From a virus: DNA of 62,104 nt. Below, piece after piece: positions 5,973-61,908 of the stretch. The notes beneath the pieces are model-generated. The model did not search any database, was not told where the DNA came from, and saw only the letters and a list, made by a program, of their open reading frames with translations. The position numbers and the translations under genes were made by a program. The stretch spans positions 1 to 62,104 of IMG/VR virus record IMGVR_UViG_3300037189_018914, one strand, 5' to 3'. Numbering within the stretch: position 1 is the first letter of the stretch; each line of letters starts with the position of its first letter.

Positions 5973-7904
5973 CTACATACCAGCGGGAGCAGGTTGTCCA
6001 TACTGCTGAGCCATAACCATTGCCCCGCCTTGAGACCGGGCTTGCTGTCGGATGTCGTCGATGATGCTCGTGACGAGAGCATGCATCGTCGCGTCGCCAC
6101 GTTTGAGATTAATAAGCTCGGAATCTTTCTGCGTCTCCGGCATCGACAGCAGTTGGTTAGCGATAAGCTGGGCCTGCTGCTGCAAATCTTCAGGCGTCCG
6201 CGGGATGTTACCAGAGTTCTGCCGTTGCATGAGGAAATGGTCAACGGCTGATGGCTGCCCCGGACCCATTGGAGCACCGCCGGCGGCTGGCACAGGAGCA
6301 CCGCCCGGATCGGCTGGCATGCCCGTCGCACTGGCACCGGCCTGTCCAACACCGCCGACCATCTCGGCCGACTGCGACAGGTCTTTCATTTGCTGCGACT
6401 GCTCCATCTGCTTCTGCATCCGCTCTTGCTCTTCGGCGTAAATGCGTTCTTCTTCCAGCATCCGCTTGGTCTCGTCTTCGTAGTCGATGCCTACGCTCTT
6501 GAGGCCCGTTGTCTTGCTGATCATCTGGCCCTGCATCAACTGCAGCTTGGCCATCTGCCGGTTGAGGTCGTCGGCGTGCGTGACGCGGACCAGCTTGGCC
6601 CCCACCGGTTCCCACGACATAACCTTGGCAACGTGGCTCGCTAAGTCATTCAGGAAGCGGTTCATATTGTGCGGCAGGTGGCTCCAGTTGGCTTCAAATA
6701 GCCGCAAGGCTGCCGGGGCAGCTTGGAACGACAGCGTGCCGTTAAACAGTTCAACCGGCATACCGATGCACTTCAACAGCGTCTCAAGGCCCTGATCGAG
6801 CAAGTCTTTGGGAGCAAGCTGCGAGGCGTCGCCGCCAAGGGCCTGATAGTTCACGGGGAAAGGCAGAACGTTCCAGCGGGCCGGGTCGGTGCGGCGGGCA
6901 CGAAGCATTGACTGCACGCGAGCCGTAAAGTTGGACAGATTAATGGTGTGTACTGGGTCGGCAGATTGGGCATCGCCGCCTCGTGGGGCGGGCGTGATGA
7001 CGCGGAACGGGATCACGTAGTCCAACGCGATCGCCTCGTTGTAGCGGTGCAAAATCTGGTAGTACCACGCTTGCCGGAAATTGGTCAGCACGCGAGAGAT
7101 GCCCCAGCCGCGGTTCCGCATGCCGGCGAGAGCGTCTTCTTTGAGGTGGTAAATCACGCCCTTATCGAACATCAGGTTTTGTTCGTTCTTGATAGCCTGA
7201 ATAACTTCCCAACTGGCTCGCTCAAGATGATGAAGATGTCCTTGCTTGATTAACGCCCGGTAGTCCTGCGGAATCTTCCAGACATACGAGCACTCGTCGG
7301 TGTACGGGTCCCAGAGAATGTCGATCTCGTGCGGACTCCAGCGTTTGACGTGCATGCTGTCCGTGTCGCCAGATCGCCGGTCGATGTGTCGCCATTCGCC
7401 GGTTCGTTTGCACTTCGGGCAGGTGGCGTGAAATTGGAAATCATGCCACTTGAATGCACACTGCTCAGAGTTGTAAACCTTGTCGAGCGGCATTTCGAGG
7501 CCGCACGATTTGCAGGACAGATATCGGCGGAACGGCACGAGCAAGCTGGTAAACGAGTTACCGTAGGACATGTAGTCCAGCCCGATGGTGTGCAACACGT
7601 TCTTAATGCTGAGCGTGTCTTCGAGAAAGACTTGAAACTTTTCCTTCTCTTCGCGGCCAGTCGTGTTCTCGCCGATGTCGTAAATTTCGATGTCGGTAAC
7701 GAAGTACGAAACCACGCGGTCGATCGCCTGCCGATACGGACCGTTGGCGTTCATGACGTATTCCGTCCAGCGTAAAGCTGTCTGAATACTTTCCGGCATC
7801 GAGAGACTGGCGATGTCGCAGAACGGGTCCGGGAAGCGTTCGTCAGAGTGAACGCCCTTGCCCAGCGAGTTGTAGCCCAATTGTGCGGTAGGAGTTAACG
7901 ACAC
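5973..7904 (-). CDS. Portal protein with an inserted zinc-ribbon
   Basis: 643 residues, a usual portal length. Portal-like features include YRQAIDRVVSYFVTDIEIYD near residue 60, YMSYGNSFTSLLVPFRRY near 111-130, a helical wing/stem region (YYQILHRYNEAIALDYVIPF) and ALRLFEANWSHLPHNMNRFL. Residues 131-165 hold CKSC and CPKC pairs, an apparent zinc ribbon inserted in the wing domain. The last about 160 residues are Met/Gln/Pro/Gly-rich and probably flexible. The portal forms the dodecameric vertex ring through which DNA is packaged and ejected. Start is GTG at 7902-7904 after GGGGTG. Neighbours are a 49-residue gene upstream and the glycosyltransferase downstream. Confidence 0.8.
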   Translation of the reverse strand: MSLTPTAQLGYNSLGKGVHSDERFPDPFCDIASLSMPESIQTALRWTEYVMNANGPYRQAIDRVVSYFVTDIEIYDIGENTTGREEKEKFQVFLEDTLSIKNVLHTIGLDYMSYGNSFTSLLVPFRRYLSCKSCGLEMPLDKVYNSEQCAFKWHDFQFHATCPKCKRTGEWRHIDRRSGDTDSMHVKRWSPHEIDILWDPYTDECSYVWKIPQDYRALIKQGHLHHLERASWEVIQAIKNEQNLMFDKGVIYHLKEDALAGMRNRGWGISRVLTNFRQAWYYQILHRYNEAIALDYVIPFRVITPAPRGGDAQSADPVHTINLSNFTARVQSMLRARRTDPARWNVLPFPVNYQALGGDASQLAPKDLLDQGLETLLKCIGMPVELFNGTLSFQAAPAALRLFEANWSHLPHNMNRFLNDLASHVAKVMSWEPVGAKLVRVTHADDLNRQMAKLQLMQGQMISKTTGLKSVGIDYEDETKRMLEEERIYAEEQERMQKQMEQSQQMKDLSQSAEMVGGVGQAGASATGMPADPGGAPVPAAGGAPMGPGQPSAVDHFLMQRQNSGNIPRTPEDLQQQAQLIANQLLSMPETQKDSELINLKRGDATMHALVTSIIDDIRQQARSQGGAMVMAQQYGQPAPAGM

Positions 7905-7916
7905 TACAGCACCCCG

Positions 7917-8066
7917 TTATTTTACGGCAGATTCGGCCGCACGCTTACGAAAATCACTATCTAATTCCGCTGCGGTCGGTTTTTTGTTGTCATTATGGGC
8001 GGCTGTCTTTTCCGGCTCGTGTTCCGGGTTTGTTAAATCAGCCCTGATCACGCCTTGCTTTTCCAT
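7917..8066 (-). CDS. Small hydrophilic protein, 49 aa
   Basis: ATG at 8064-8066, TAA at 7917-7919. The product starts MEKQGVIRADLTNPEHEP and ends FRKRAAESAVK; it is highly charged with no hydrophobic segment and is probably disordered with a C-terminal helix. It fills the gap between the 312-residue gene (stop five bases upstream) and the portal gene exactly. Upstream bases give only a weak ribosome-binding site (GGAATC). No family recognised. Confidence 0.55.
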   Translation of the reverse strand: MEKQGVIRADLTNPEHEPEKTAAHNDNKKPTAAELDSDFRKRAAESAVK

Positions 8067-25761: not shown

Positions 25762-26835
25762 TCACCCTAAAAAGGACAGATCAGCCTCGACGCCAACAGA
25801 CGCCGCGGCTTCAGACAAGATGTTAAAAAGATCGGCTCGGGAGTAGTCGGCCGGATCGCGTGCGTCCGGCAGAACGACAGGCACAACTTTCAGGTTATGC
25901 TGGCAGAGTTGCATAACAGCCTGTTCCAACTCCTTACGGGCGTCGCAGTCTAGCAGAACAAAGACGGGCTTTCCAGCCCACGTGGTCGCAATCGTATTCT
26001 CTTGCCAATACGACAACGTCTTGCCGAACAAACACACCCCAGCTTTCCCAAGCCGCCACACGCTCGGTGCACCCTCGACAAGAACAACAACGTTTTCCTT
26101 GGCGGCAACGTCGTAGTTGTAAAGGGCACGGCTCTTTCGACCCTGCGTGTAGTACTTGATTTCATTCTTGCCGGCGGGCCGCGTTAGACGCCCCTGCCAC
26201 GCCACCAGCCGACCATTGAAATACGTCGGAATAAATATCCGGCCATTCATGATCCTGTAGCGAGGCGACGCGTCAACACACAAGCCGACATTGAACGTGG
26301 CAGACAATTCATTGATGTCAAAACCACGAGAAACCAGATACTCAATCGCCGGATGGTGCTCGGGCAGCTCGGGCAGCTTGAGAATGTTGCCCGGCAGATC
26401 AAGCGTCTCATTGACGTCTGGTACGGTGCCGGGGCGGATCACCATGTTTCGCCGCAGGCTACGCCCGGGGCCAAAAATCAGGTCCTCAAGTTGTGCCGAC
26501 CGACCCTCGACCTCCAGACAATCATTTCGGTAGCAGTGGGCAAGAAACGTGTCGTTCCGCCTACCGCTCTTGGGGTCACAACTGGCACCGTACAGGTGAT
26601 TAATCCAGAGCTTGAAGTTGGTTTCGCGGCAGAACGGGCAGCAGACGCAGTAATACTCGCCCCAGTTGGTGGCTCGGGTTACGACCTTTCCGGTTCTAGG
26701 GTCTATAAACCGTTGAACACGAGCGGCAGAGCCTGCGTTTGCAATCTGCACCTCGCCGAACTTGTGCTCCAATAAAGCATAAAGCGTTGGGTTTAACGGA
26801 TTGACACTAGGTCGGGACGACTGTGTCATCGACAT
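25762..26835 (-). CDS. DNA primase (DnaG-type, zinc + TOPRIM)
   Basis: 357 residues. The N-terminal zinc-binding region has CVCCPFCRE near 63-71 and a second cluster AHCYRNDCLE near 99-108. The middle (YRIMNGRIFIPTYFNGRLVA) matches the primase core, and VVVLVEGAP... with VFVLLDCDARKE is the TOPRIM E...DxD set. The protein lays down RNA primers for lagging-strand synthesis together with the neighbouring DnaB-like helicase. It has no fused helicase. GGAG lies five bases before the ATG. It sits between the polymerase and helicase genes with 3- and 8-bp gaps. Confidence 0.85.
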   Translation of the reverse strand: MSMTQSSRPSVNPLNPTLYALLEHKFGEVQIANAGSAARVQRFIDPRTGKVVTRATNWGEYYCVCCPFCRETNFKLWINHLYGASCDPKSGRRNDTFLAHCYRNDCLEVEGRSAQLEDLIFGPGRSLRRNMVIRPGTVPDVNETLDLPGNILKLPELPEHHPAIEYLVSRGFDINELSATFNVGLCVDASPRYRIMNGRIFIPTYFNGRLVAWQGRLTRPAGKNEIKYYTQGRKSRALYNYDVAAKENVVVLVEGAPSVWRLGKAGVCLFGKTLSYWQENTIATTWAGKPVFVLLDCDARKELEQAVMQLCQHNLKVVPVVLPDARDPADYSRADLFNILSEAAASVGVEADLSFLG

Positions 26836-26843
26836 AAATACTC

Positions 26844-28562
26844 CTATGACAGCAGGTTTTGCCCAAACGTGTCGATGTCTGGCATAATCCGGCGGCGACG
26901 CTGTTCAGACGCCGAGGATGGAGCCACCACCTCGTTGCTGTGCGAGGTCGGGCCCAGTTCGCCTTTACGCATGATCTTCTTGGCCAACTCATTGATATAG
27001 AACTCTTCGTCGGCTGCCCGAACGTCGACAACTCGGTCGTCGATACGCACAAGACCGAACGGACTAGCCGGACGACCGAAACGAATCTTGGACCAGTGAA
27101 TCGTTGAAACAAAGCATTCCGGGTCAGGCTTGTTAAGGCACAAGCAGGCGTGCAGGTTCTCGGCAAAAGCCTTGGAGCCCTGTGCGTCGGCGTGACTGAC
27201 GTGCCGGTAGGCCGGAATGTTCTTGATATCGCCCTGTGCCAACTGATGAGCGATAAAGACCGTACAGCCCATAGGTGCGGCGATCTTCGTCTTCAGTTCG
27301 TCGGGCAGCATCTGCAGCGGCCGCCAAATCTGCTCCTGATACTTCGTGCTGGCGTTCTGCGACATCTCACGGTTAATAAGCGGGCCGGCGTAGTCGAGAG
27401 CCAGAAAGCCAATCTTCTTGCCGGTCTGCTCCATAAGGTTCGTTAACGTGGCCACGATCTCGTCAACACCGCCATTGCCTCGCCCGCCGGTGTCAGGGTT
27501 TGAGGAAAAGTCGAGGAAGACAAAGTTGTTGTTAAACCAGTGCTGCACCGCTCGCCACCGCTCACGCTCACCCAGCATGATCTCGGCATTAGCGTTGATC
27601 GCCAGTTCCCGCTCGTAAGCCTTGAGGTTTTCGCTGGTCGAGAGACCCTGCCAAAAAGTCTCCGGGGTTTTATTGATAAAAGCGTCACGCTCGATGTGAG
27701 CCGCGGCGGAATACAGAGAGAAATTGATCTTCTGTGCCCCGTCCTCGTAACCGATGTACACAGCCAGCGTGTCAGGGTCACTGATGGCGAACCGCTGAGC
27801 CATGCGGACGGCGATCACGCTGAGCATAGTCGTCTTACCGCCAGAGTACGGACCCAGCAGGCCCAATACGTCTCCCGACCGGAAGCCGCCGATGTAGTTG
27901 TCAATCCACGCAATCCCAGTAGGCGTTGCCGACGGCGGCAGAATAATATCCTTGTCCTCGTCAGGCATCAGGGCGACGTTCACCGCCTCGTTGCCTAAGA
28001 AGTGCACAGACTGAGCCTGCTTATTAAACGCGGCCAACAACTGAGAAAACTCTCGGGGCGAGGTGTTCTCGTCGCTGTGGCTGACCAGCCGCTGCAGTTC
28101 CTGCTTGACCAATCTGGCATTCAGGAAACGACGCAGAATATTCTCGACATAGTGCCGCTCAGCCCGTAGCTCTTCTTTGGAAAGCTCGCGGGCAGGGACA
28201 GCAAAGGCGTCGTCAATAAAACCATTAGGACTGTCTTCGGTGCCGAACAGAAAATCGGCATCATGTCCGGGCATCGGGATCAGGTTGCACTCGGCCTGTG
28301 ACATGATCTCGGTAAGAAGCATGTCTTTTGTCACGACGCCATCATGTCGCTCAAAGAGCAGCGTGTGGATGTCGACAAACAGAGCCAGCCCTGATTCGTT
28401 GCGGCTGTTAAACTGCCCGGCCTTGAGGCCCGTCCGCAAAGCAGAACGAAATACGGTCGGGAACTTCACCAGTCCGCGTACCAAGGCTTTCACCTCGCTG
28501 GCGGTCAGTGGGACGTCGTCTAGCGTCCTTGGTTGGTCTACATAATGTTGAATACTAGCCAC
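26844..28562 (-). CDS. DnaB-like replicative helicase
   Basis: 572 residues. The N-terminal about 200 residues are helical. The RecA-like motor starts near 210 (TGIAWIDNYIGGFRSGD) with Walker A GPYSGGKT at 237-244, Walker B-like IGFLALDYAG, and FIAHQLAQG as motif H3. It is the hexameric 5'-3' helicase at the fork. Start is GTG at 28560-28562 with GGAGG seven bases upstream. A Ser/Arg-rich tail ends DTFGQNLLS. It follows the primase in a fixed order, as in many phage replisomes. Confidence 0.85.
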   Translation of the reverse strand: MASIQHYVDQPRTLDDVPLTASEVKALVRGLVKFPTVFRSALRTGLKAGQFNSRNESGLALFVDIHTLLFERHDGVVTKDMLLTEIMSQAECNLIPMPGHDADFLFGTEDSPNGFIDDAFAVPARELSKEELRAERHYVENILRRFLNARLVKQELQRLVSHSDENTSPREFSQLLAAFNKQAQSVHFLGNEAVNVALMPDEDKDIILPPSATPTGIAWIDNYIGGFRSGDVLGLLGPYSGGKTTMLSVIAVRMAQRFAISDPDTLAVYIGYEDGAQKINFSLYSAAAHIERDAFINKTPETFWQGLSTSENLKAYERELAINANAEIMLGERERWRAVQHWFNNNFVFLDFSSNPDTGGRGNGGVDEIVATLTNLMEQTGKKIGFLALDYAGPLINREMSQNASTKYQEQIWRPLQMLPDELKTKIAAPMGCTVFIAHQLAQGDIKNIPAYRHVSHADAQGSKAFAENLHACLCLNKPDPECFVSTIHWSKIRFGRPASPFGLVRIDDRVVDVRAADEEFYINELAKKIMRKGELGPTSHSNEVVAPSSASEQRRRRIMPDIDTFGQNLLS

Positions 28563-29310
28563 GATACGTCCTCCAATGCTGACGAAGCCACACTACTACT
28601 TTTCGAATGTTGTCAGTGAGCAGCCAGTTGAATTCATCGTGGTCTGCTATAAAGCCGTCGTACATGGGTTGCTGCATCTCGTAGTCGATAGCAGCCAACA
28701 CCGCGTACTTGAATACGCCCCGCCGACAATCCATCGCGGCGGAAAATGCGTGCCGTAAAAACGGCGGAGCATTAACATGGGAAGTATCGCAAATCGTGAG
28801 AAGAAAGCGATCGTCCCGGTCTATGTTCAGGCTCGCTAGAATCTTGAACCGCGTGTCGATAGACGCCTCGGCTGAGGAGAACCGATCGACGAACAGTTCG
28901 TCAAAGTGCCGGATATAGTCATCATAAATCTCGTACGAGTGCGTGCCGTTCAGCAATTCGGGCCGGCTGGTGATCAGCCCTTTGCCCTGTGCCAGCCGAA
29001 CAGCGGCCACCGACGGTGAAAAGTGGGCCGCCACCCACATGCCCGGATTCGCGTTGTGCGACCTGATCCTTCGGGCGATCAGATTCCACACGCACTTGTG
29101 TTTACAGCCTTTATCATCCTTGCCTCCGTCCCAGTTCACACGGGATTTCGTGTGGGTCGGAGTGTCCCAATCCTTGACGCCCTCCCGCATGAAAATAAAC
29201 AGATAGCGGATGTAGGCTTCAAGTTGCGGCAGGGTTAGCCGATTAAACCAGTCATGGCTCAATAATTCCGTTCCGTCCTGCTTGCGTCCGCCAACTTCTT
29301 GCAGCTTCAT
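28555..29310 (-). CDS. Hypothetical protein in the replication block, 251 aa
   Basis: Starts MKLQEVGGRKQDGTELLSHD. ATG at 29308-29310 is chosen because it avoids most of the overlap with the helicase gene upstream (59 bp still overlap). Features: LPQLEAYIRYLFIFMREG, KCVWNLIARRIRSHN, and a C-terminal helical part ending WLRQHWRTYRG. No family recognised. Position between two helicase genes suggests a replication or repair accessory role; inference only. Confidence 0.7.
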   Translation of the reverse strand: MKLQEVGGRKQDGTELLSHDWFNRLTLPQLEAYIRYLFIFMREGVKDWDTPTHTKSRVNWDGGKDDKGCKHKCVWNLIARRIRSHNANPGMWVAAHFSPSVAAVRLAQGKGLITSRPELLNGTHSYEIYDDYIRHFDELFVDRFSSAEASIDTRFKILASLNIDRDDRFLLTICDTSHVNAPPFLRHAFSAAMDCRRGVFKYAVLAAIDYEMQQPMYDGFIADHDEFNWLLTDNIRKVVVWLRQHWRTYRG

Positions 29311-30805
29311 TCCAATTTTGCTCCCAGCCCAACAATTTGTAGCTATCGCGTCGGCCAGAGCTTTTGCGATAGAACGTCGGGTCAAAGGTGTCCATGCAAT
29401 CAATAACTTCGCCGTATTCTTTCACTTTGCCTTCTGGCGACGTATACATACGGCTTACACGTCCCGGGCCCTGCACGTCAACAATATCGCTGTCTCTGTC
29501 GTCGGCCCGCACGAGCACGTTTAATTGCTCAAAGTCCACGCCTGTCGACCACACATCCGTGGCGATTACCTTTCGTAAAGTCCCCTGCTCGAATGCCGAC
29601 CGCATGTCGTGCTTTTGTACGTCCGTCAACGGTTTATAGTCCTGCGGCAACAGCTTTAAACGCTTGTACGCCGTGCAGTCATACGGAGCCATCTGCGAGT
29701 ACATCAGCGTGAATTCCGGCAGCAGCGAGCCCAAATTTACAGCGTGCTCAATCGTCTCGACCAGAATCAAAATTTGATAGTCGTCGGGATACTCGCGGAC
29801 GGCGTCGGCAATGATGCTGTTGCGAGCATGATTGGTCCAGATGCCGTATTTCTTCTTGGCGACCCGGTGCTTGTACCTCTCGGCCGGGTTGTGTGTCAAG
29901 CGGATCGGCAACCACTTCACCTGCACCGGCACAACGAGGCCCAACTCGACGGCCTGTGGGTACGGGAGGTCAAAGATCATGGGGCCGAAGAGCGGCTCCA
30001 GAATCGCGTGGGCGTTGTCCATGCGGGCATACGGCGTGGCACTCATGCCGAAGTTCCGCGAATTGCGGTAGCGTGCGGCAAGGGCCGTAGAGAAATTCAC
30101 CGTGGCAAGCTGATGAACCTCGTCCGCAAACATGAAGTCTGCGTCGCCGTCAGCGTGTTGAAGGCTGCCTGCCGTGATAACCGTAATTCGCTCTCTCTGT
30201 TTCCAGCCGTCGCCGATCATGCCAACTTTAGGAACGAACCGTCGAAGGCTCCTCACAATACGCTCGGCAACGTCGACGCTCTTGGTAATGACGTCAATAC
30301 GAGCATCGGGAAACAACTGGGACGCAGCACCGATCAAGGTCGTCTTGCCGAAGCCCGTCACGGCTTTAATGATGCCGCACGGGACGCGAGAGATCAACCG
30401 CATGCACTCTTCCTGCCGCGGGCGAAACTGGATTTTGCCGTCAAGGTTCTCCCACTGCGGTACGTAGCAGTTTGGGCGTTTACGGGTAGGCGTGGTGTCG
30501 ACCAGCGTCAGGCTGCAACCCAGCTTCTTCAACCGGTTGACCATGCGGGCCATGTAACCAGACAGCAGCACGACATGCCCGTTTTCGATGCGATACAGCT
30601 TGTATTCGCGGGTCTGGAAATAAAGCCGCTGCCCGGTAATCGGATTCTTACGCGACTGCCCGTGAAGCTGCTCGACGTGGTCGTACCGAAGATCGCGGGT
30701 CAGGTGGGCGGCGAGGTCGGGGTTTAAGGCAGTGCCGCCAGCACCCGTGATCTTGAGTACGTTACCAGTTTTATTAATGACAACAGGGTAGCCGGAAAAA
30801 TTCAT
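29252..30805 (-). CDS. UvsW-like SF2 DNA helicase
   Basis: 517 residues. Q motif FRPRQEECMR, Walker A AVTGFGKTT, the DEVH box (FADEVHQ), motif III SATPYAR, and motif VI VQGPGRVSR place it in superfamily 2 with T4 UvsW and XPB-like helicases. UvsW-type enzymes remodel R-loops, reverse stalled forks and drive branch migration. The ATG at 30803-30805 lies one base after the preceding TAA (TAACATG). It fits beside the Rad50/Mre11-like pair and RecA. Confidence 0.85.
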   Translation of the reverse strand: MNFSGYPVVINKTGNVLKITGAGGTALNPDLAAHLTRDLRYDHVEQLHGQSRKNPITGQRLYFQTREYKLYRIENGHVVLLSGYMARMVNRLKKLGCSLTLVDTTPTRKRPNCYVPQWENLDGKIQFRPRQEECMRLISRVPCGIIKAVTGFGKTTLIGAASQLFPDARIDVITKSVDVAERIVRSLRRFVPKVGMIGDGWKQRERITVITAGSLQHADGDADFMFADEVHQLATVNFSTALAARYRNSRNFGMSATPYARMDNAHAILEPLFGPMIFDLPYPQAVELGLVVPVQVKWLPIRLTHNPAERYKHRVAKKKYGIWTNHARNSIIADAVREYPDDYQILILVETIEHAVNLGSLLPEFTLMYSQMAPYDCTAYKRLKLLPQDYKPLTDVQKHDMRSAFEQGTLRKVIATDVWSTGVDFEQLNVLVRADDRDSDIVDVQGPGRVSRMYTSPEGKVKEYGEVIDCMDTFDPTFYRKSSGRRDSYKLLGWEQNWNEAARSWRTQAGRNGIIEP

Positions 30806-30806
30806 G

Positions 30807-31298
30807 TTAGTCGAATCCCGGGCCGGCGACCGGTTCGATTGAAATGACTTCAAATGTTCCATACTTTTCTTGATTGTTGTTGAATGGTGAAAACCCCCTG
30901 TACTTGCCGACAAGAGTCAGGAGGTGGTTGAAGTCTGCCAATGGTATCTCATCTGGCAGCACAGCGGAAACGACAACTGTGTCGCCCGGGCGGAACGCCT
31001 CATGGAGAGCATAGTGGGTTCGCATCCCATCGCTATTGGGCGTCAGAATGTTTCGTCGCCAATCGTTTCTGGGCTCTCCGAAAATCACCGGACACCAGTC
31101 TATTTTTTTGACATCAACGTGGTGGCGGTTAGCAATCTTGGCGGCGTACCGCATGCAGGCGAGCCATGCCGCCGACATAAACATCACACGGTTGCTCGGG
31201 TCTCGCTCAAAACAGAATATCGTCTGACCGTGCCGCTTTCGTTTCGCAGCCCCGAGACACACACGATTAAACCGTAAAGTGATCGTAACTTCTTGCAT
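30807..31298 (-). CDS. Conserved phage-type protein of unknown function, 163 aa
   Basis: The N-terminus MQEVTITLRFNRVCLGAAKR leads to WLACMRYAAKIANRHHVDV and WCPVIFGEPR. The C-terminal VGKYRGFSPFNNNQEKYGTFEV has a pattern (GKYRG.SP, YGTFEV) I associate with uncharacterised phage proteins. The alternating strand layout could be a ferredoxin-like fold. Its TAG/ATG junctions on both sides show operon membership. Confidence 0.7.
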   Translation of the reverse strand: MQEVTITLRFNRVCLGAAKRKRHGQTIFCFERDPSNRVMFMSAAWLACMRYAAKIANRHHVDVKKIDWCPVIFGEPRNDWRRNILTPNSDGMRTHYALHEAFRPGDTVVVSAVLPDEIPLADFNHLLTLVGKYRGFSPFNNNQEKYGTFEVISIEPVAGPGFD

Positions 31299-31299
31299 A

Positions 31300-32241
31300 C
31301 TACTTTACCGGCTTCTTCATGTGGTGCTCGTATGACTCGCTCTCTGCCGGTGTTTTGAAATACAGGTTTGGAGCAAATAACCCGTCCTTTGGTCCCTTGC
31401 GATTTTCCAAAACAGAAAGCCAATTGTCGTTTAAATACCGAAGGAAGGCCTGCGATGCCCGTAGGTCGCCGTGAGCACCGCCGCCGGCTGCGTGCCAGAT
31501 GCGGTACAAGAAATTTTCAGGCTTTTTTAAATCAATGGTTTCAGTGTTTGCCGATTTCCAACTGTTGAGCACAGCCACGCAACGAAGCTCACGAGCCTTG
31601 GTCAGCAGTTTGTTTGGATTTGAAACTTTTTCTTGGATTGCAGGCGTCAAGCCGAGAAACAATTCCAGCTTTTTAATCCGATCGGGCCGGCGTCGGTCGA
31701 TGTACCACCGAGGGTCGATTGTTGTTACCAAAAGCTTGGCGGCGTCAGATTCGGATAGTGTTGGAATGAACGTCAGTGCTTTGTACGCCGGATGCATGTG
31801 CAAATACGACGTCGCCGGCTCGTCGAACACAAAATTATTTCGCGTCATACGAGCCAGCATGGCATAGGTCGGATAGTCGTGAAGCGTAATGCTATGCCAC
31901 CCACCGCACGCCGGGGAAACAACAGCCGACCGCATTCTCATTAATACCGTTGCCGGGTCTTTTAACTCGTGCTGGGTGTCCAAAATATTTGGGCCTGCAA
32001 TTTCCACAGACCGAATCTCGCCTTTGTACCTGCGTAAGTACAGAGCACAAATAAGCTCGGAGTTTTGCGGAATGCCTAAAACACGAAAAGTCAGCCCCAC
32101 GCCAGACACAGTCTGCGAAAGCATGAAACTGTCGACGATTTGCTCTGAGTTTTTGCACGAGCTTATACCGCGGGCGTACCAAACATTCCCGTCATCCGCG
32201 GTATGCAGTTTAATTATCGTCTCGTCCTGCGGGCCGTACAT
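31300..32241 (-). CDS. Hypothetical protein, 313 aa, in the replication block
   Basis: Contains YLHMHPAYKALTFIPTLSES, then DPRWYIDRRRPDRIKKLEL and FLGLTPAIQEKVSN; this WYIDRxxPDRIxKLxxFLGLTP segment looks conserved and may belong to an uncharacterised phage family. A C-terminal His/Lys-rich tail follows. It overlaps the Rad50-like gene by 32 bp, so the two are probably cotranslated. Function unknown. Confidence 0.7.
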   Translation of the reverse strand: MYGPQDETIIKLHTADDGNVWYARGISSCKNSEQIVDSFMLSQTVSGVGLTFRVLGIPQNSELICALYLRRYKGEIRSVEIAGPNILDTQHELKDPATVLMRMRSAVVSPACGGWHSITLHDYPTYAMLARMTRNNFVFDEPATSYLHMHPAYKALTFIPTLSESDAAKLLVTTIDPRWYIDRRRPDRIKKLELFLGLTPAIQEKVSNPNKLLTKARELRCVAVLNSWKSANTETIDLKKPENFLYRIWHAAGGGAHGDLRASQAFLRYLNDNWLSVLENRKGPKDGLFAPNLYFKTPAESESYEHHMKKPVK

Positions 32242-39391: not shown

Positions 39392-39464
39392 ATGCCCGGG
39401 TAGGATTCGAACCTACAACCGAGGGAACCAAAATCCCTTGCTCTGCCAGTTAAGCTACCGGGCA
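39392..39464 (-). tRNA. tRNA-Gln(UUG)
   Basis: A complete cloverleaf: acceptor TGCCCGG/CCGGGCA, D-arm GCTTAACTGGCAGAGC, anticodon stem AGGGA/TCCCT with loop TTTTGGT (anticodon TTG, reading CAA), and T-arm GTAGG TTCGAAT CCTAC. The U1-A72 pair is typical of tRNA-Gln. Discriminator T, no encoded CCA, so host CCA-adding enzyme would be needed. It supplies a minor codon for a GC-rich genome. Confidence 0.93.
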
Positions 39465-54940: not shown

Positions 54941-55172
54941 TTTCTATCTCCTTTCGCATTTCTTCTGTTTCAGAATCGAACGCATAGGTACTGGCCAGAC
55001 AGTCGCAGTCCTCGAAGTTTCGGGCGTAGATGTCTACGACTACACCTTCATCGGTCTTTTTGATGTATATGGAGAAATCCTTGACGCCGATCCACGTGCT
55101 GTCGGCACGGCGGGACAATTCAGCGTCTGTCTCTTCGTGCAGCTTTACTCGTTTTTTCTTTTGCCCGGTCAT
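54927..55172 (-). CDS. Small hypothetical protein, 81 aa
   Basis: The basic start MTGQKKKRVKLHEETDAELS leads to strands (VKDFSIYIKKTDEGVVVDIY) and an acidic end (ETEEMRKEIENEVD). One base overlaps the upstream gene. No family recognised. Confidence 0.68.
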   Translation of the reverse strand: MTGQKKKRVKLHEETDAELSRRADSTWIGVKDFSIYIKKTDEGVVVDIYARNFEDCDCLASTYAFDSETEEMRKEIENEVD

Positions 55173-55708
55173 CAGAACGTGAAATTCTCTGTGTTGTATT
55201 CCATTATCCGCTCATTGTGCTCAACGGAAATTTCGCCGGATGCGGTGTCGATCACGATGGTGCCAAAGCTGCCGTCGTTGATTTCCCAGCCGCCGGGCAG
55301 CAGGTCAAACGCGTCGTCCATAATTTCGGACTCGATAACGTCGGCTGTTGTGTCATTGTTCTGCAGATGCTGTTTCAGTTCTGCTTCAAACTTCTTGCAG
55401 AACTTTTTTAGCGTCATATTCTTTGGCTTACCTTCGGCAATCTCGGCCTGTTCTTCTTCTGAGCATTCGGTAAGGCACTTATTTGTATCGGGCGTATAAG
55501 CAACAGTGGACGAATACATGTCACCCGAATCACCACTTCCGTCGTATTCAAACGTGATGCTCACGGCTCCGAGAGCGTGAAATGCTTTGGCGTAATCTTT
55601 GAGGCGTCCAACGCCGGCGGCTTGCTTTGCCATGGTTCTCCCCATGAGTTCGTTGACGAGGCTACGTAGCCTTTGCTGGGCTTCTTTGTCTTCGTTAGTA
55701 AGAGGCAT
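55172..55708 (-). CDS. DUF6878-like protein, 178 aa
   Basis: The C-terminal segment LLPGGWEINDGSFGTIVIDT with GEISVEHNERIMEYN resembles DUF6878 (LPgGWEinEGSyGti.fD). The N-terminal half is helical (QQRLRSLVNELMGRTMAKQA). Overlaps the 167-residue gene by 14 bp. Function unknown. Confidence 0.62.
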   Translation of the reverse strand: MPLTNEDKEAQQRLRSLVNELMGRTMAKQAAGVGRLKDYAKAFHALGAVSITFEYDGSGDSGDMYSSTVAYTPDTNKCLTECSEEEQAEIAEGKPKNMTLKKFCKKFEAELKQHLQNNDTTADVIESEIMDDAFDLLPGGWEINDGSFGTIVIDTASGEISVEHNERIMEYNTENFTF

Positions 55709-56892: not shown

Positions 56893-57261
56893 TCAATCAT
56901 CCAAATCATCATAGTCCGGCTCGACGTACATTTGGTCGAGACCGCACTCTTCGATCTGCGTCCTGAGCTTTCTGTCGTTGTCAAGCAACGACAAAAACCA
57001 GTCGCAGATCGTCGCGTCCTCTTCTTTTGTCGGCGGCTGCATTTGCGTGTGCAGCCCGTCGATTTTAAAGAGTTTGCATTGGGCCCCCGTAATGGAGGTG
57101 TGTGGTGGATATCCGGGTTCGCCGTCGCCGTTTGGCGTGTACATAATCGCCGGTTCGCCCGGGTCGTAGTCGAACGCTACGTTGAATTCAAATTCGCCCG
57201 GCACGCCAAACGGGTTTTCCCCTTCGGAGTCGTCAATTTCCCACTGAATCCAGTTTGTCAT
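56893..57261 (-). CDS. Hypothetical protein, 122 aa
   Basis: ATG at 57259-57261 overlaps the stop of the 87-residue gene (ATGA). Starts MTNWIQWEIDDSEGENPFGV; includes FNVAFDYDPGEPAIMYTPNG and CDWFLSLLDNDRKLRTQIEE. Acidic. Resembles small phage proteins but no family named. Confidence 0.7.
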   Translation of the reverse strand: MTNWIQWEIDDSEGENPFGVPGEFEFNVAFDYDPGEPAIMYTPNGDGEPGYPPHTSITGAQCKLFKIDGLHTQMQPPTKEEDATICDWFLSLLDNDRKLRTQIEECGLDQMYVEPDYDDLDD

Positions 57262-57521
57262 GACTGTGCCTGCACGTGTTCCGTTTGCATCTTGGTGTTG
57301 AGCCACTCTTCCTCGGCGGCAAGAGCGGCTGCTCGGTCAGGAAACCCTGTCATCAGCGGACCGCCGACAGGAGACAGGTCTGCATACCATTGACCGGGAT
57401 TGTTCTGGTCGGGCTCAACGTGGCTGGCTCGCTTGATGTCGAGTTGTCCAAGGCTCGCGAGGGAAATCTTTTCGCCGTACAGGCATTGGGTCGTACCGTT
57501 CGGTCGGAAGTATAGGTTCAT
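57258..57521 (-). CDS. Conserved phage protein, 87 aa
   Basis: The segment KRASHVEPDQNNPGQWYADL with SPVGGPLMTGFPDRAAALAA and EEEWLN follows a recognisable small family (RASHVEP...GxWxADLSPVGGP.LG.F..R..ALxAE..WL). Function unknown. ATGA overlaps on both sides. Confidence 0.75.
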   Translation of the reverse strand: MNLYFRPNGTTQCLYGEKISLASLGQLDIKRASHVEPDQNNPGQWYADLSPVGGPLMTGFPDRAAALAAEEEWLNTKMQTEHVQAQS

Positions 57522-58519
57522 GTTGCCGCCTCTTGCAACCGCTGCACACGACGCGGACCCGGCTGCACGGCCAAGTAGTTGACCTGTCTTACCGGAAACC
57601 CTTGCACGGGCTGGTTTTGGTACTGTGGGATATTTGGGGTGCTCGTCGCCACGATCGGATTTCGGGCGGCTGACAAGGCTGACTCAAGCGTATGACGTGA
57701 ACCGAAATGCCGGTTCTGGAAAACAAGCGTGCCACCAATTTCTGGCCGGTAGTTGTTAGCGTCGTTGCCCGTCGTGTTAATACGACAACGCACCAGTATG
57801 GCATTTTGCTGTACAACGATCGGCGACCAGATCATAGTTTCTTCTGTCAAAATAGCGTGGCCGCAGATGCTCACCCGTTCGTTTGGATTTCTATTGTGGA
57901 TTGCTGTTCTTCGCAGCAGTTGGCTGAAGCCAGATATCCAAACAAAACCGTTGATAACGGCGTCGATAACTGTGCACTGCTCGTCGGCTCGGCTGTTGCC
58001 AGAAAACTCGCAGCGAATGAGAACCGCACGGCCGGCAATCACAGGGTTGTCACGAAACGTGGACGAAATAACCTGTGCGTTGTCTGTGATCGTCGTGCCA
58101 CCGAATACCCGAGAGGTGCCCGAGACGACAGCAAATCCGTTTATTCGTGCGTTCTCACCAATGATTGCTACGTCACTCACGCATGACTTGCCGCACACAA
58201 ACGCGTTCTGCTTGATAATGGCGTGGCCAGATATTGTCGCACTGCCACCAACGCGAGCTTTGCCTTCGAGGCGGACTTTGCCGGAGATATAGGCGTTTTC
58301 GAATACCTCGCATCGCGGACCAACGTAGACGCTGTCTTCTACAACGGCCGTGCGAGCCACCCACCCGCGACCGTTAACATGTCGTTTGGCCGGCACGCGA
58401 CCCATACCATTTTTGAAATCGTGTTTTTGAATTCTTGGCTTTTTGATATCCAGCATAACCCCCAGTTGCTCAACTGGAGGTGGTGTGATCGTTGCTGTGT
58501 CGATTAACGTCATCCTCAA
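57518..58519 (-). CDS. Left-handed beta-helix (hexapeptide-repeat) protein, 333 aa
   Basis: Many short hexad-like strands: RVGGSATISGHAIIKQNAFV, CGKSCVSDVAIIGENARING, GTSRVFGGTTITDNAQVISS and RVSICGHAILTEETMIWSP. This is the layout of YdcK- and acyltransferase-like left-handed beta-helices. The N-terminal 60 residues and the C-terminal Pro/Gln-rich 60 are outside the helix. A sugar acyltransferase would be the enzymatic reading, but no catalytic His is obvious, so a structural role (virion surface or decoration) is equally possible. ATGA overlap with the coiled-coil gene. Confidence 0.72.
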   Translation of the reverse strand: MRMTLIDTATITPPPVEQLGVMLDIKKPRIQKHDFKNGMGRVPAKRHVNGRGWVARTAVVEDSVYVGPRCEVFENAYISGKVRLEGKARVGGSATISGHAIIKQNAFVCGKSCVSDVAIIGENARINGFAVVSGTSRVFGGTTITDNAQVISSTFRDNPVIAGRAVLIRCEFSGNSRADEQCTVIDAVINGFVWISGFSQLLRRTAIHNRNPNERVSICGHAILTEETMIWSPIVVQQNAILVRCRINTTGNDANNYRPEIGGTLVFQNRHFGSRHTLESALSAARNPIVATSTPNIPQYQNQPVQGFPVRQVNYLAVQPGPRRVQRLQEAAT

Positions 58520-59460
58520 CCCATGGGCATCACACGTCGCCGCGGGGCGTTCGTGATCAGATTGTCTAACGATGACTGCACGGTAGCCATCTGCTGACTG
58601 AGGTTTCGTCGCACCTCGTCGTTATTACGCAGTTCCTTGACCTCCACGCCGGCAACAAGGTCGTTGGCCTGCTTGATCAGATTCTCAAGCTGGTCGTTCG
58701 ACCTGACGTTCATGCGGCGGAAGTTTTCATAGAACTCTTTGAAATTCTCGACCGCGGACGACCGGAACGTCTTCTTTGTTCCGTCTGGCTCGTCTGCCAG
58801 TCGTTCGATAAGGTGCGAAACCAGTTCCTGCAACCGTTCGGCAAACGCCTGCTCGGTCATGAGGACAGCGGTTTCGAATCGCTCCTGCACGCGACGCTGT
58901 TCCTGCTCATACAGGTCAGGATTAAAAGTCATCAGGTAGTTGGGGGCTTCAACGGCGGGGTACTCCCACTTGATGTCAAAGACGCCCTCAAGGGTAGACG
59001 GGTAGTCGGCAGCATTAAACAGGTCGCCCAGTTTTTGCCGTGCCGCTTCCTTGAGGGTCTCGTACTCCAGTTGTAAATTGGCAGCCGCTGCGGCGAGTTG
59101 CTCCTTGAACTCCCGCATCTTTACTTCAAATGCCTCAACATCTGACTGCTTGATCAGGCGGACGCCCTCCTGCGGATAGGGCAGCGTCATGCTCCGCCAA
59201 TAACCAGATACCTGACTCTTGAGTGCCGTCAGCACCCGATATGTCGGATTCTTTGTGTCGATGAGTTTCTTTGATGCCGTGACGAGGTCTGTCTCGGCGT
59301 GAAACGTATCAGCCGCCTGTTTGGTCTGGGCGTCCGACAGCTTTCGCTGCGTCCCCAGCCACGAGAACGACACCCGCACGGCACCCATCGTTTGCCGCAA
59401 TTCGTTGGCGGTCTGGGTTACGGTATCGGCAGTGGTTGGGGCTGCGGTTTCTGTTGACAT
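58516..59460 (-). CDS. Coiled-coil protein of the AAA cassette, DUF3150-like
   Basis: 314 residues. Predicted helical with long coiled coils (VKMREFKEQLAAAAANLQLE, RVQERFETAVLMTEQAFAER). The centre PQEGVRLIKQSDVEAFEVKM recalls DUF3150 proteins that neighbour AAA ATPases in plasmids and phages; the match is by pattern only. Encoded directly after the Ycf46-like ATPase, separated by 56 bp including a perfect hairpin. A partner or substrate adaptor of the ATPase is inferred. Confidence 0.62.
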   Translation of the reverse strand: MSTETAAPTTADTVTQTANELRQTMGAVRVSFSWLGTQRKLSDAQTKQAADTFHAETDLVTASKKLIDTKNPTYRVLTALKSQVSGYWRSMTLPYPQEGVRLIKQSDVEAFEVKMREFKEQLAAAAANLQLEYETLKEAARQKLGDLFNAADYPSTLEGVFDIKWEYPAVEAPNYLMTFNPDLYEQEQRRVQERFETAVLMTEQAFAERLQELVSHLIERLADEPDGTKKTFRSSAVENFKEFYENFRRMNVRSNDQLENLIKQANDLVAGVEVKELRNNDEVRRNLSQQMATVQSSLDNLITNAPRRRVMPMG

Positions 59461-59478
59461 AATCAGTCGTCCTTTGGT

Positions 59479-59498
59479 TTTTCACTGCGTAGTGAAAA
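59479..59498 (-). promoter_or_regulatory. Perfect 8-bp inverted repeat upstream of the coiled-coil gene
   Basis: TTTTCACT-ACGC-AGTGAAAA on the minus strand, symmetric, no T run, 19 bases before the ATG at 59460. Operator or RNA hairpin; cannot decide. Confidence 0.5.
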
Positions 59499-59516
59499 TT
59501 GGGTTATCTGTAAAAA

Positions 59517-61013
59517 TCAGTTATCAGACGCGTTCGGGGCAGTGATCTTACGGCGACCGCTGGACGGCACTGCCTGCCGCGGCTTTCCCACCCGCGTATA
59601 CAACCCCGGATTGTCAGCCGACAGGCAACGGCCCTCGGCCCACTTTCGCAGGTGCTCGATCTGTTCGGCACTGGTCACAGCGACCGGAACGACGTTCTGG
59701 GCCGCTTCGATCAGGGAGATGTCCAGCAGGGCCGCCAGACGGCAGCACGCCTTGACCTCGGCACCGGTCCAGTTGGTGTCGTCGGGACGCTGCTGGGCTT
59801 TGTCGAGCCCGAAATGGTTCAGGTAGATGTCCCAGATACGCTGCCGCTGCTCGTCCGCCGGCAGGTCCACGAAGAACACACCGTCAAAACGTTCGGCACG
59901 GGCAAACGGAGCCGGAAGCTGACTGGCATCGTTGCAGGTGCCGATAAAGAACACGTCCGACGTGTGGTCGTTAAGCCACGTCAGAAGCGTGCCGAACAAC
60001 CGGGCCGAAACGCCGCTGTCGGTTTGGCCGGAGCCACCGACGCCGGCAAGACCCTTCTCGATCTCGTCGACGAACAGGACGCACGGAGCCATGGCATCGA
60101 CCTGCTTGAGAGCACGCCGCATGTTGCCCTCGGACTCGCCCACGAACTTGCCCATCAGGCTGCCGAAGTCGAGCATTACGGTCGGGCGGCCGACCTCGTT
60201 GCCTAGAGCTTTGGCGAACTGCGACTTGCCGCAGCCCGGAGGCGAGAGCAGCAAGACACCCTTGGGCCGCTTATCGACGTTCTTCTCGCCCTGACGCCGC
60301 ATTGCCCGCAAGCAGAATTGCTTGAGGTTTTCGAGGCCGCCAAGGTTATCGAAGTTTGCATCGCCGCGATACAGGGTCATGGTGCCGCTCTTTTCGAGCG
60401 TCTGAGCCTTGATGCCCCAGATGGTATCCGGCTCCAGCTTGTTATTGCGGACCAGCGACAGGGCATAGGCGTTCTCGGCCTCCTGTCGGGTCAAGCCGCG
60501 GGACGCCTCGACGACGCTGTTGATCTGCTCTTCGGTCGGCTTTTCAAACGTCTTATCGCCGTTGAACAGGTCGTTGCAGATGCTCTTAAGCTGCGTCTCG
60601 TCGGGCAGTTCGTGATGCACGACCGTGAACAGTTTTTCGACCTCGGGCTGCAGGGCAACCGTCGGAGCCACAACGATGACATAACGACCCTCGCCCTTGC
60701 CCTGCACGACCCGGTTGGCCAGTGCCTGCAAAACCTCGGGGTTGGGAAGATAGCGATGGAAATTCTTAAGAACGAGAATCTGCGTCTCGTTCGTCTTGGG
60801 CAGGTCCATAGACCGGATCGCCTGAAGAGGACCCGGTGCCGGCGTTAAGCCAGAATAAAGCTGGCGGTCGATGTCCCAGACATCAAAGCCCCACTTCCGG
60901 TCTTCCGCTAACTTGCGGATGGTGGCGACGGCGTCGTCGCACTCCACGGACTCAACCCAGATACCGGAAAAGCCTGCACAGACGAGTTCTTTGATCTCTT
61001 TTTCGAGTGACAT
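59517..61013 (-). CDS. AAA+ ATPase, Ycf46-like
   Basis: 498 residues. The N-terminal about 200 residues resemble the Ycf46 pre-AAA region (KNFHRYLPNPEVLQALANRV, with VIVVAPTVALQPEVEKLF). The motor has Walker A SPPGCGKSQ at 257-265, LMGKFVGESEGNMRRAL, Walker B LFVDEIEK near 313-320, sensor I FFIGTCND and arginine fingers ARAERFD. A disordered tail follows. AAA enzymes of this type unfold or remodel proteins. With the DUF2997 and DUF1257 genes immediately upstream it forms a recognisable cassette. Confidence 0.85.
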   Translation of the reverse strand: MSLEKEIKELVCAGFSGIWVESVECDDAVATIRKLAEDRKWGFDVWDIDRQLYSGLTPAPGPLQAIRSMDLPKTNETQILVLKNFHRYLPNPEVLQALANRVVQGKGEGRYVIVVAPTVALQPEVEKLFTVVHHELPDETQLKSICNDLFNGDKTFEKPTEEQINSVVEASRGLTRQEAENAYALSLVRNNKLEPDTIWGIKAQTLEKSGTMTLYRGDANFDNLGGLENLKQFCLRAMRRQGEKNVDKRPKGVLLLSPPGCGKSQFAKALGNEVGRPTVMLDFGSLMGKFVGESEGNMRRALKQVDAMAPCVLFVDEIEKGLAGVGGSGQTDSGVSARLFGTLLTWLNDHTSDVFFIGTCNDASQLPAPFARAERFDGVFFVDLPADEQRQRIWDIYLNHFGLDKAQQRPDDTNWTGAEVKACCRLAALLDISLIEAAQNVVPVAVTSAEQIEHLRKWAEGRCLSADNPGLYTRVGKPRQAVPSSGRRKITAPNASDN

Positions 61014-61026
61014 GTAGTTACCTTAG

Positions 61027-61218
61027 TTAGTTCTGCTGTTCGAGGGTCTGCTCATTCGACGCGGTGTAATATTCGCCGGTCAGCGTCTCATCGACCTTGG
61101 CACCCAGAGCTTGCTCCAGAGCCCGCGTGGCATCCTGACACGAGCTACCGGAGAAGCCGGTGGTCTCGATCTTAGTTTCGCCCTTCTTATTAACTACAAC
61201 CTGAATGATTTTTGACAT
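61027..61218 (-). CDS. DUF2997 protein, 63 aa
   Basis: MSKIIQVVVNKKGETKIETT is followed by GFSGSSCQDATRALEQALG, matching DUF2997 (strand, G-F-x-G-x-x-C, helix). Small protein of unknown function that accompanies DUF1257 and AAA genes in bacteria. Separated from the ATPase gene by 13 bp and 3 bp from the DUF1257 gene. Confidence 0.82.
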   Translation of the reverse strand: MSKIIQVVVNKKGETKIETTGFSGSSCQDATRALEQALGAKVDETLTGEYYTASNEQTLEQQN

Positions 61219-61221
61219 GTA

Positions 61222-61587
61222 TTAGGCCTCCACAGTGATGTTAAGTTTGATCGAACCGTCAGCGAGCGTTTCTTCGTACACGGAATAACCGCCCTTCTGG
61301 GCTTCATAAATCGCCTTCTCGACGGCGTACGCCTGCAGGAACTTATCCAGTTCCTCCTGCCGGCCCCATGCCCCGTTGTAGTTGTCGTAGGCAGCAGCAC
61401 CGGTATCGACGTTGAACACAGCCGGGAACTGCCAGCCGGGCAGTTTCACCGCCAGACCGTCCGCCGACTGGCCGGCGAACAGGACATGGTGGCCGGCAAC
61501 GGGCTGTTCAAGGCCCAGCCGCTTGCAGGCGGCGGAAATAGCATTGGCATCACGAACTTCAGTCTTGATTTGAACGATGTGTGACAT
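61222..61587 (-). CDS. DUF1257 (Ycf35-like) protein, 121 aa
   Basis: MSHIVQIKTEVRDANAISAA is the usual DUF1257 opening (MSHfs.iKt.i.d...L..AL). KLPGWQFPAVFNVDTGAAAY and WGRQEELDKFLQAYAVEKAI complete the family pattern. Chloroplast Ycf35 belongs here; function unknown. Encoded with DUF2997 and the Ycf46-like ATPase. Confidence 0.85.
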   Translation of the reverse strand: MSHIVQIKTEVRDANAISAACKRLGLEQPVAGHHVLFAGQSADGLAVKLPGWQFPAVFNVDTGAAAYDNYNGAWGRQEELDKFLQAYAVEKAIYEAQKGGYSVYEETLADGSIKLNITVEA

Positions 61588-61611
61588 ATGTGTCTTTTTT
61601 GGTGGTAAGTA

Positions 61612-61908
61612 TTAGCAGGTCACCACGACCTCGCCTTTGGTTTCAACCCATACGCGAGCCCCGCAACTTAGGGGCTTATCTGGGGAGTACACGGCTTTAG
61701 CCGGTCCCCGAATCTCGGCGTTCTCTACCGGATATGATTTGTTACGCCACTGAACGGTAATGACGTTATTACGTTCGCCGGTAGTTTTGTTCCGGCGGAT
61801 CATGTGCTGATTGACGTGAATACGCTTGATGGTGCCGGCTTGCATGACAATGACGCTGCCGGGTGTAAGTTCACTTCGCCGCACGAGGCGGCAAGCAGTT
61901 GCGGCCAT
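61612..61908 (-). CDS. Hypothetical basic protein, 98 aa
   Basis: AGGAGG lies five bases before the ATG. Beta-rich with basic patches (LTPGSVIVMQAGTIKRIHVN, TGERNNVITVQWRNKSYPV), probably a small beta-barrel. First gene of the AAA cassette; role unknown. Confidence 0.72.
   Translation of the reverse strand: MAATACRLVRRSELTPGSVIVMQAGTIKRIHVNQHMIRRNKTTGERNNVITVQWRNKSYPVENAEIRGPAKAVYSPDKPLSCGARVWVETKGEVVVTC

Follow-up and report, generated by a model that had tools for sequence, protein, structure and literature searches.

We studied a stretch of viral DNA of 62,104 bases, the full IMG/VR record IMGVR_UViG_3300037189_018914, classed as linear (hereafter the window). It carries five co-conserved genes, encoding an AAA+ ATPase, a DUF1257 protein, a DUF2997 protein, a 314-amino-acid (aa) divergent homologue of DUF3150 and an 87-aa protein, and this gene set has moved as a unit between a phage family and Planctomycetota (see below). 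With modest confidence, we read it as a mobile module that remodels proteins at the expense of ATP and includes a DUF3150-type adaptor; its target would probably be a protein complex of the host or of a rival element.

Gene run in the window

The window virus is a large bacterial virus, a jumbo phage. Besides the module, the window encodes a collagen-like tail-fibre, a DNA polymerase, a primase, a DnaB-like helicase, a UvsX-like recombinase and an SbcC-like gene, which indicates a tailed phage. The window is probably a fragment of the phage genome, since the record is linear and relatives of the ATPase lie on contigs of up to about 198-205 kb. The module is part of a run of seven closely packed minus-strand genes, running from position 61,908 down to 57,258:

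61612..61908, minus strand: 98-aa protein (phrog_8676), first gene of the run, non-core, close phage family only
61222..61587, minus strand: DUF1257 (Ycf35-family) protein, 121 aa, core, with an N-terminal MSH motif and Pfam matches of its homologues
61027..61218, minus strand: DUF2997 protein, 63 aa, core, Pfam match of 59.6 bits
59517..61013, minus strand: AAA+ ATPase, 498 aa (phrog_8638), core, with PF00004 and AAA motifs
58516..59460, minus strand: 314-aa helical protein, divergent DUF3150 homologue, core, by homologue matches and fold match
57518..58519, minus strand: left-handed beta-helix/hexapeptide-repeat protein, 333 aa, non-core, fast-evolving, within the gene run
57258..57521, minus strand: 87-aa protein, core, by co-conservation

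Gaps of 24, 3, 13 and 56 bp separate the genes from the 98-aa through the 314-aa gene, and 4-bp overlaps join the 314-aa gene to the beta-helix gene and the latter to the 87-aa gene. A preliminary description of this DNA had proposed a cassette of five open reading frames (ORFs) at 58516-61908. All five are present on the minus strand with the gaps given above, and the observation as such stood up to analysis, but the boundaries did not: the run continues past 58,516 through the two overlapping genes as far as 57,258. The 98-aa protein falls outside the core, and the 314-aa protein, taken for an added coiled-coil adaptor, belongs to it.

Conservation and spread of the module

The cassette was retained in about 30 related phage contigs with low ratios of nonsynonymous to synonymous polymorphism (pN/pS), a conservation far beyond chance. 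Searches of IMG/VR gave 48 loci with the ATPase as query and 30 with the 314-aa protein. Close phages kept the order 98-aa, DUF1257, DUF2997, ATPase, 314-aa, beta-helix and 87-aa wherever the contig was long enough, sometimes with extra DNA between genes. All genes of the run except the beta-helix gene had pN/pS of 0.06-0.39, and all core genes are under purifying selection (0.06-0.36). The beta-helix gene, with 0.50-0.69, evolves much faster than the core genes flanking it.

Distant phage loci were searched with hidden Markov models (HMMs) built at first from the close phages only and then widened; the widened HMMs were retrained on their own matches, and the clean E-values are those of the close-phage-only HMMs. 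At least three of the five core members were found in 35 of the 88 distant loci, in 13 gene orders, so that the linkage is more than inherited synteny. The ATPase, DUF1257, DUF2997 and the 87-aa protein occur together in Tunturiibacter phage Tunturi_3, Rhizobium phage L338C, Pseudomonas phage UF_RH6 and Aeromonas phage HJ05. The reverse test found the ATPase in every phage locus centred on the 314-aa gene that had enough upstream sequence. The co-conserved core thus defined has the five members listed at the outset. The 98-aa protein, in contrast, was limited to the closest phages and was not found in the distant loci.

Variant arrangements were also noted. Phages with the ATPase, DUF1257, DUF2997 and 87-aa genes and no DUF3150-like gene had a different protein of 200-250 aa between ATPase and DUF1257 (L084 6467-7102, L085 6380-6982, L086 6771-7394, L144 7655-8404, L154 7738-8391 and L160 4451-5125), and in L164 a gene that looked radical-SAM-like by eye (7366-7995) lay between the ATPase and DUF1257 genes. 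Some ATPases lacking DUF1257 and DUF2997 were followed by a protein of 267-293 aa (L107 7333-8133, L109 5794-6615 and L149 7618-8496); L109 and L149 also had a small protein beginning MPCDT or MACDT with a C-terminal end resembling HSHDGGKTWH.

A genome scan for cellular relatives, made with a narrowed ATPase alignment, returned mostly Planctomycetota at 50-58% identity, followed by Nitrospirota, Deltaproteobacteria and others. Many of the Planctomycetota loci share the order of the window, DUF1257-DUF2997-ATPase-314-aa-87-aa. The 314-aa family occurred in 19 of 195 Planctomycetota genomes, several of them with at least two matches; in one, seven copies are scattered along a single chromosome, an 8.3-Mb contig, and the isolate Neorhodopirellula pilleata has one copy. 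Reverse testing placed the ATPase in all 23 Planctomycetota regions fetched, and DUF2997 lay within 7 kb in 29 of the 33 copies checked. In four loci with DUF2997, the short sequence inspected contained no 314-aa gene; because the ATPase and DUF1257 still adjoin DUF2997 there, these three are probably the innermost trio. Serine recombinase genes flank part of the Planctomycetota loci, and one module relative sits on a plasmid (L203). The module is therefore mobile, being sporadic and multicopy in Planctomycetota and often near recombinase genes. The machine had been described as perhaps host-derived; bacterial relatives do exist, but as this scattered gene set rather than as one of the host's core systems.

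Part of the Planctomycetota loci are flanked by ThiF, Prok-JAB and ThiS-like genes. A gene for a ubiquitin-activating-type enzyme (E1, ThiF) with adjoining JAB and/or ubiquitin-like protein (Ubl) genes was present in nine of the 23 regions (L262, L263, L265-L269, L271 and L277), where the module is followed by ThiF with a JAB and/or a ThiS-like Ubl gene. Most of these nine also had a cysteine-rich protein with the motif HPHV...LCEG, a possible E2/RING on a reading of motifs, which had no Pfam match. Six other loci (L264, L270, L272, L276, L278 and L279) had a gene of about 454-459 aa after the module that seemed sliding-clamp-like by eye and had no Pfam match above the cut-off.

In the ATPase tree, 13 close phages and 15 Planctomycetota rows formed one clade, with a Shimodaira-Hasegawa-like approximate likelihood ratio (SH-aLRT) support of 99; the trees of the 314-aa and DUF1257 proteins gave a matching 27-row grouping (SH-aLRT 100 and 98), and that of the 87-aa protein gave no resolution. 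These were quick, unrooted trees in which several branches within the distant phages are long. Since the ATPase, 314-aa and DUF1257 trees all join the phage family to Planctomycetota, the module genes have moved between them as a unit. Independent assembly of the genes, not co-conserved in related phages, is the opposite of what the 13 gene orders and the three concordant trees show, and the proposal that the phage carries a complete AAA+ gene set as one unit, with kin among bacterial genes, was borne out.

Core proteins

Residues ~216-490 of the ATPase form a classical AAA module with the P-loop PPGCGKS, the Walker B motif VLFVDE and conserved Asn and Arg residues. The match to PF00004 scored 96.6 bits against a gathering cut-off of 21.2, so that the AAA label given previously stands, as does that of DUF2997 (PF11211, 59.6 against 24.1 bits). 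Gly259, Lys262, Asn360 and Arg374 (numbered as in the first sequence of the alignment) were unchanged across 17 ATPase relatives. Residues 1-215 constitute a degenerate AAA-like domain lacking a P-loop, related to the AAA core with an hhalign probability of 92.9 (E 3.7e-7). The nearest named families were CDC48, CdvC and the proteasome-activating nucleotidase, and the best sequence matches among solved structures were CDC48/p97 and AFG2, AAA segregases that likewise have two AAA-like halves. Unlike CDC48/p97, one half of the window ATPase has no P-loop, and its score with the CDC48 model, 91.9 bits, is far under the cut-off of 802.65. It is not of the MoxR class, as AAA_5 gave only 12.1 bits, below the cut-off. 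The top match in the defence libraries was PADLOC IetA (8.4e-18), which covers the AAA core alone; the NCBIfam model of the anti-phage ATPase IetA/IteA gave 54.9 bits against a cut-off of 510.

Two peculiarities were seen in relatives of this ATPase. In several of them the Walker B codons of the gene are interrupted, at VLFVD|EIEK, by a group I intron (RF00028, 67-73 bits; L032 6939-7721, L033 6954-7741, L061 3958-4740 and L077 3991-4773) with a 186-aa ORF that looked HNH-like by eye; the window gene has no intron. In the ATPases of L044 (2087-3619), L080 (5779-7371, phage Tunturi_3) and L241 (5683-7260) the Walker-B/DEIEK segment precedes the P-loop, and those of L045 and L047 agree with L044 in length and motif positions. 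The L044, L080 and L241 ATPases are 35-40% identical to one another and look, from their sequences, as if two adjoining blocks of the AAA core had been swapped; a literature search on such a swapped core turned up nothing relevant.

The 314-aa protein is a divergent homologue of DUF3150 (PF11348). On its own the window protein had no Pfam match above the cut-off and no DUF3150 match up to E 1, and six of 12 aligned homologues matched the family, the best with 1.3e-20. A structural model made from a 63-sequence alignment, with a predicted local distance difference test (pLDDT) of 89.9, resembled DUF3150 models in BFVD (E 1.1e-15, template modelling (TM) scores 0.74-0.79); a weaker match (E 4.3e-3) was to an uncharacterised protein of Mycobacterium phage Dylan, which also encodes a relative of the ATPase. 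Solved structures gave nothing convincing with the alignment profile (best E 0.0079), and the model found only helical-bundle look-alikes in the PDB. In L230 the 314-aa and 87-aa proteins appear fused, which may be an assembly artefact, and this case was set aside.

In Synechococcus phage MinM2 a DUF3150 gene lies by eye one gene past a MoxR ATPase, with a VWA-like gene nearby, and in a second phage contig a DUF3150 gene directly follows a MoxR ATPase, also by eye. Because DUF3150 genes adjoin MoxR ATPases in these two phages as well, DUF3150 looks like an adaptor serving two kinds of AAA+ ATPase. The likeness of such MoxR/DUF3150/VWA-like sets to the module lies in the DUF3150 member, homologous to the 314-aa protein; they differ in that the window ATPase is of the classical AAA type, its second AAA domain being degenerate, and in that the search for a VWA-like gene was negative.

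The DUF1257 label held, if less directly: the window protein itself fell marginally under the PF06868 gathering cut-off (21.6 against 22.2 bits), and eight of 12 aligned homologues matched the family (best 4.4e-15) and share with it the N-terminal MSH. Its AlphaFold model had a pLDDT of 85.9, and its alignment profile gave nothing convincing among solved structures (best E 0.091). The 98-aa protein had no Pfam match above the cut-off.

Function and alternative explanations

Judging from the protein families, the class of mechanism is fairly well supported: a ring ATPase that works with an adaptor would use ATP to remodel proteins. The ATPase would assemble as a ring, its C-terminal AAA domain keeping the catalytic motifs and its N-terminal domain being degenerate, and would thread or pull apart the substrate; we infer both the ring assembly and the remodelling activity. 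The five core proteins presumably form one complex, in which the DUF3150-type helical protein would serve the ATPase as dedicated adaptor and the remaining three would be small accessory subunits. With it the phage would remodel or dismantle a protein complex of the host or of a rival element, the target that seems most likely because the module also lives outside phages, in some loci beside Ubl genes.

Several observations weigh against this reading. The ATPase had no detected partner (E<1e-8) in 35 of the 88 distant phage loci, and some distant phages carry another protein of about 200 aa in the place of the DUF3150-like one. The DUF1257 model had no fold match in the PDB (Foldseek best E 0.82; VIA-align best Z 4.0). 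No VWA-like gene (DUF2201 or VWA_2) was found in the window fragment or in eight close phage records, and the same search did give a DUF2201 match in MinM2; E1 (ThiF) and Prok-JAB genes were likewise not found in the window or the close phage records. Transfer between phages and Planctomycetota may have run either way, since the trees are unrooted and some of their Planctomycetota rows come from metagenome bins in which phage DNA might be present.

A different and rather unlikely explanation is that the module serves the phage's own proteins as a chaperone, assembling or maturing a virion or replisome component in a MoxR-like manner. Its retention in many phage contigs of unrelated lineages and the DUF3150 genes beside MoxR ATPases in two other phages would fit, and we also count in its favour that the maturation of dedicated complexes is ascribed to MoxR ATPases (PMC3893208) and that a 218-kb Bacillus phage encodes a MoxR pair (PMC2147016). 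However, relatives occur on Planctomycetota chromosomes and a plasmid, no virion gene was recognised in the flanks read, and no structural or replication gene was seen recurring beside the module across the distant phage loci inspected. The Ubl neighbours invite another interpretation, which we regard as improbable: the module would be the segregase arm of a mobile bacterial Ubl system, and phages would have taken over the ATPase arm but not the conjugation genes, and would use it to reverse or exploit the tagging. The CDC48-like ATPase of Planctomycetota and its DUF3150-type adaptor would then act on proteins tagged through the neighbouring Ubl, E1 and JAB, with the cysteine-rich protein a possible E2/RING from its motifs. 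As an intrinsic part of the module in this phage family, Ubl genes are ruled out by the absence of ThiF and Prok-JAB from the records. The 244-kb phage G018 (L246, L247) was the only phage with both JAB and ThiF, some 59 kb from its own module, and there the two genes adjoin (contig C1, ~26,700-31,400) in a cluster that looked PRTRC-type-like by eye.

The Ubl loci in nine of the 23 Planctomycetota regions, the action of Ubl conjugation in anti-phage defence elsewhere (PMC10097602), the sporadic, multicopy spread partly beside recombinases and the IetA match would suit a defence or superinfection-exclusion system of mobile elements and phages, directed against other phages. We doubt this strongly: the IetA match is confined to the AAA core, with the NCBIfam model far below its cut-off (see above), no toxin or nuclease partner was seen, and one copy per virus genome suits a role in the phage life cycle at least equally. 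The DUF3150 gene of MinM2, beside a MoxR ATPase and a VWA-like gene, might suggest a metal-chelatase-like or cofactor-inserting machine such as CobS/CobT and other MoxR-VWA pairs, but the window ATPase is a classical AAA protein nearest CDC48 and not MoxR, and the lack of DUF2201 and VWA_2 genes, against the positive result in MinM2, makes this very unlikely. That the genes are functionless passengers acquired with flanking DNA is hardly credible; no evidence was found for it, and it is contradicted by the low pN/pS of the core genes relative to the beta-helix gene between them and by the gene order kept throughout the close phage family.

With the Ycf46-Ycf35-DUF2997 genes of cyanobacteria and plastids the module shares the joint presence of DUF1257 and DUF2997. 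One review includes a cyanobacterial duf2997-ycf35-fed7 gene cluster (PMC4284462), and Ycf46 is reported, according to a citation in PMC12172450, to help regulate CO2 utilisation. On three cyanobacterial contigs (L229, L233 and L234) at most a few kb separated DUF1257 from an AAA relative, the AAA genes compared being unnamed; these loci, unlike the module, showed neither a DUF3150-like nor an 87-aa gene. The ATPase, 98-aa, DUF1257 and DUF2997 families correspond to phrog_8638, phrog_8676, phrog_20456 and phrog_23133, respectively, all catalogued as of unknown function, and we found no paper linking the four. Literature searches on the module as a whole returned nothing relevant, and no paper naming DUF3150 turned up in the library searched. 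The module ties DUF1257, DUF2997 and DUF3150, families without known function, to an AAA+ ATPase and the 87-aa protein; as one unit common to phages and Planctomycetota and recurring in many other phages, it provides a well-defined candidate complex for expression and may help to clarify the role of plastid Ycf35 and Ycf46.

Two further features of the window were recorded; the DUF6878 gene, near the module, is also retained in close phages:

39392-39464: tRNA-Gln gene (anticodon TTG)
55172-55708: DUF6878 protein (48.8 bits against a cut-off of 24.3), a few genes downstream of the module

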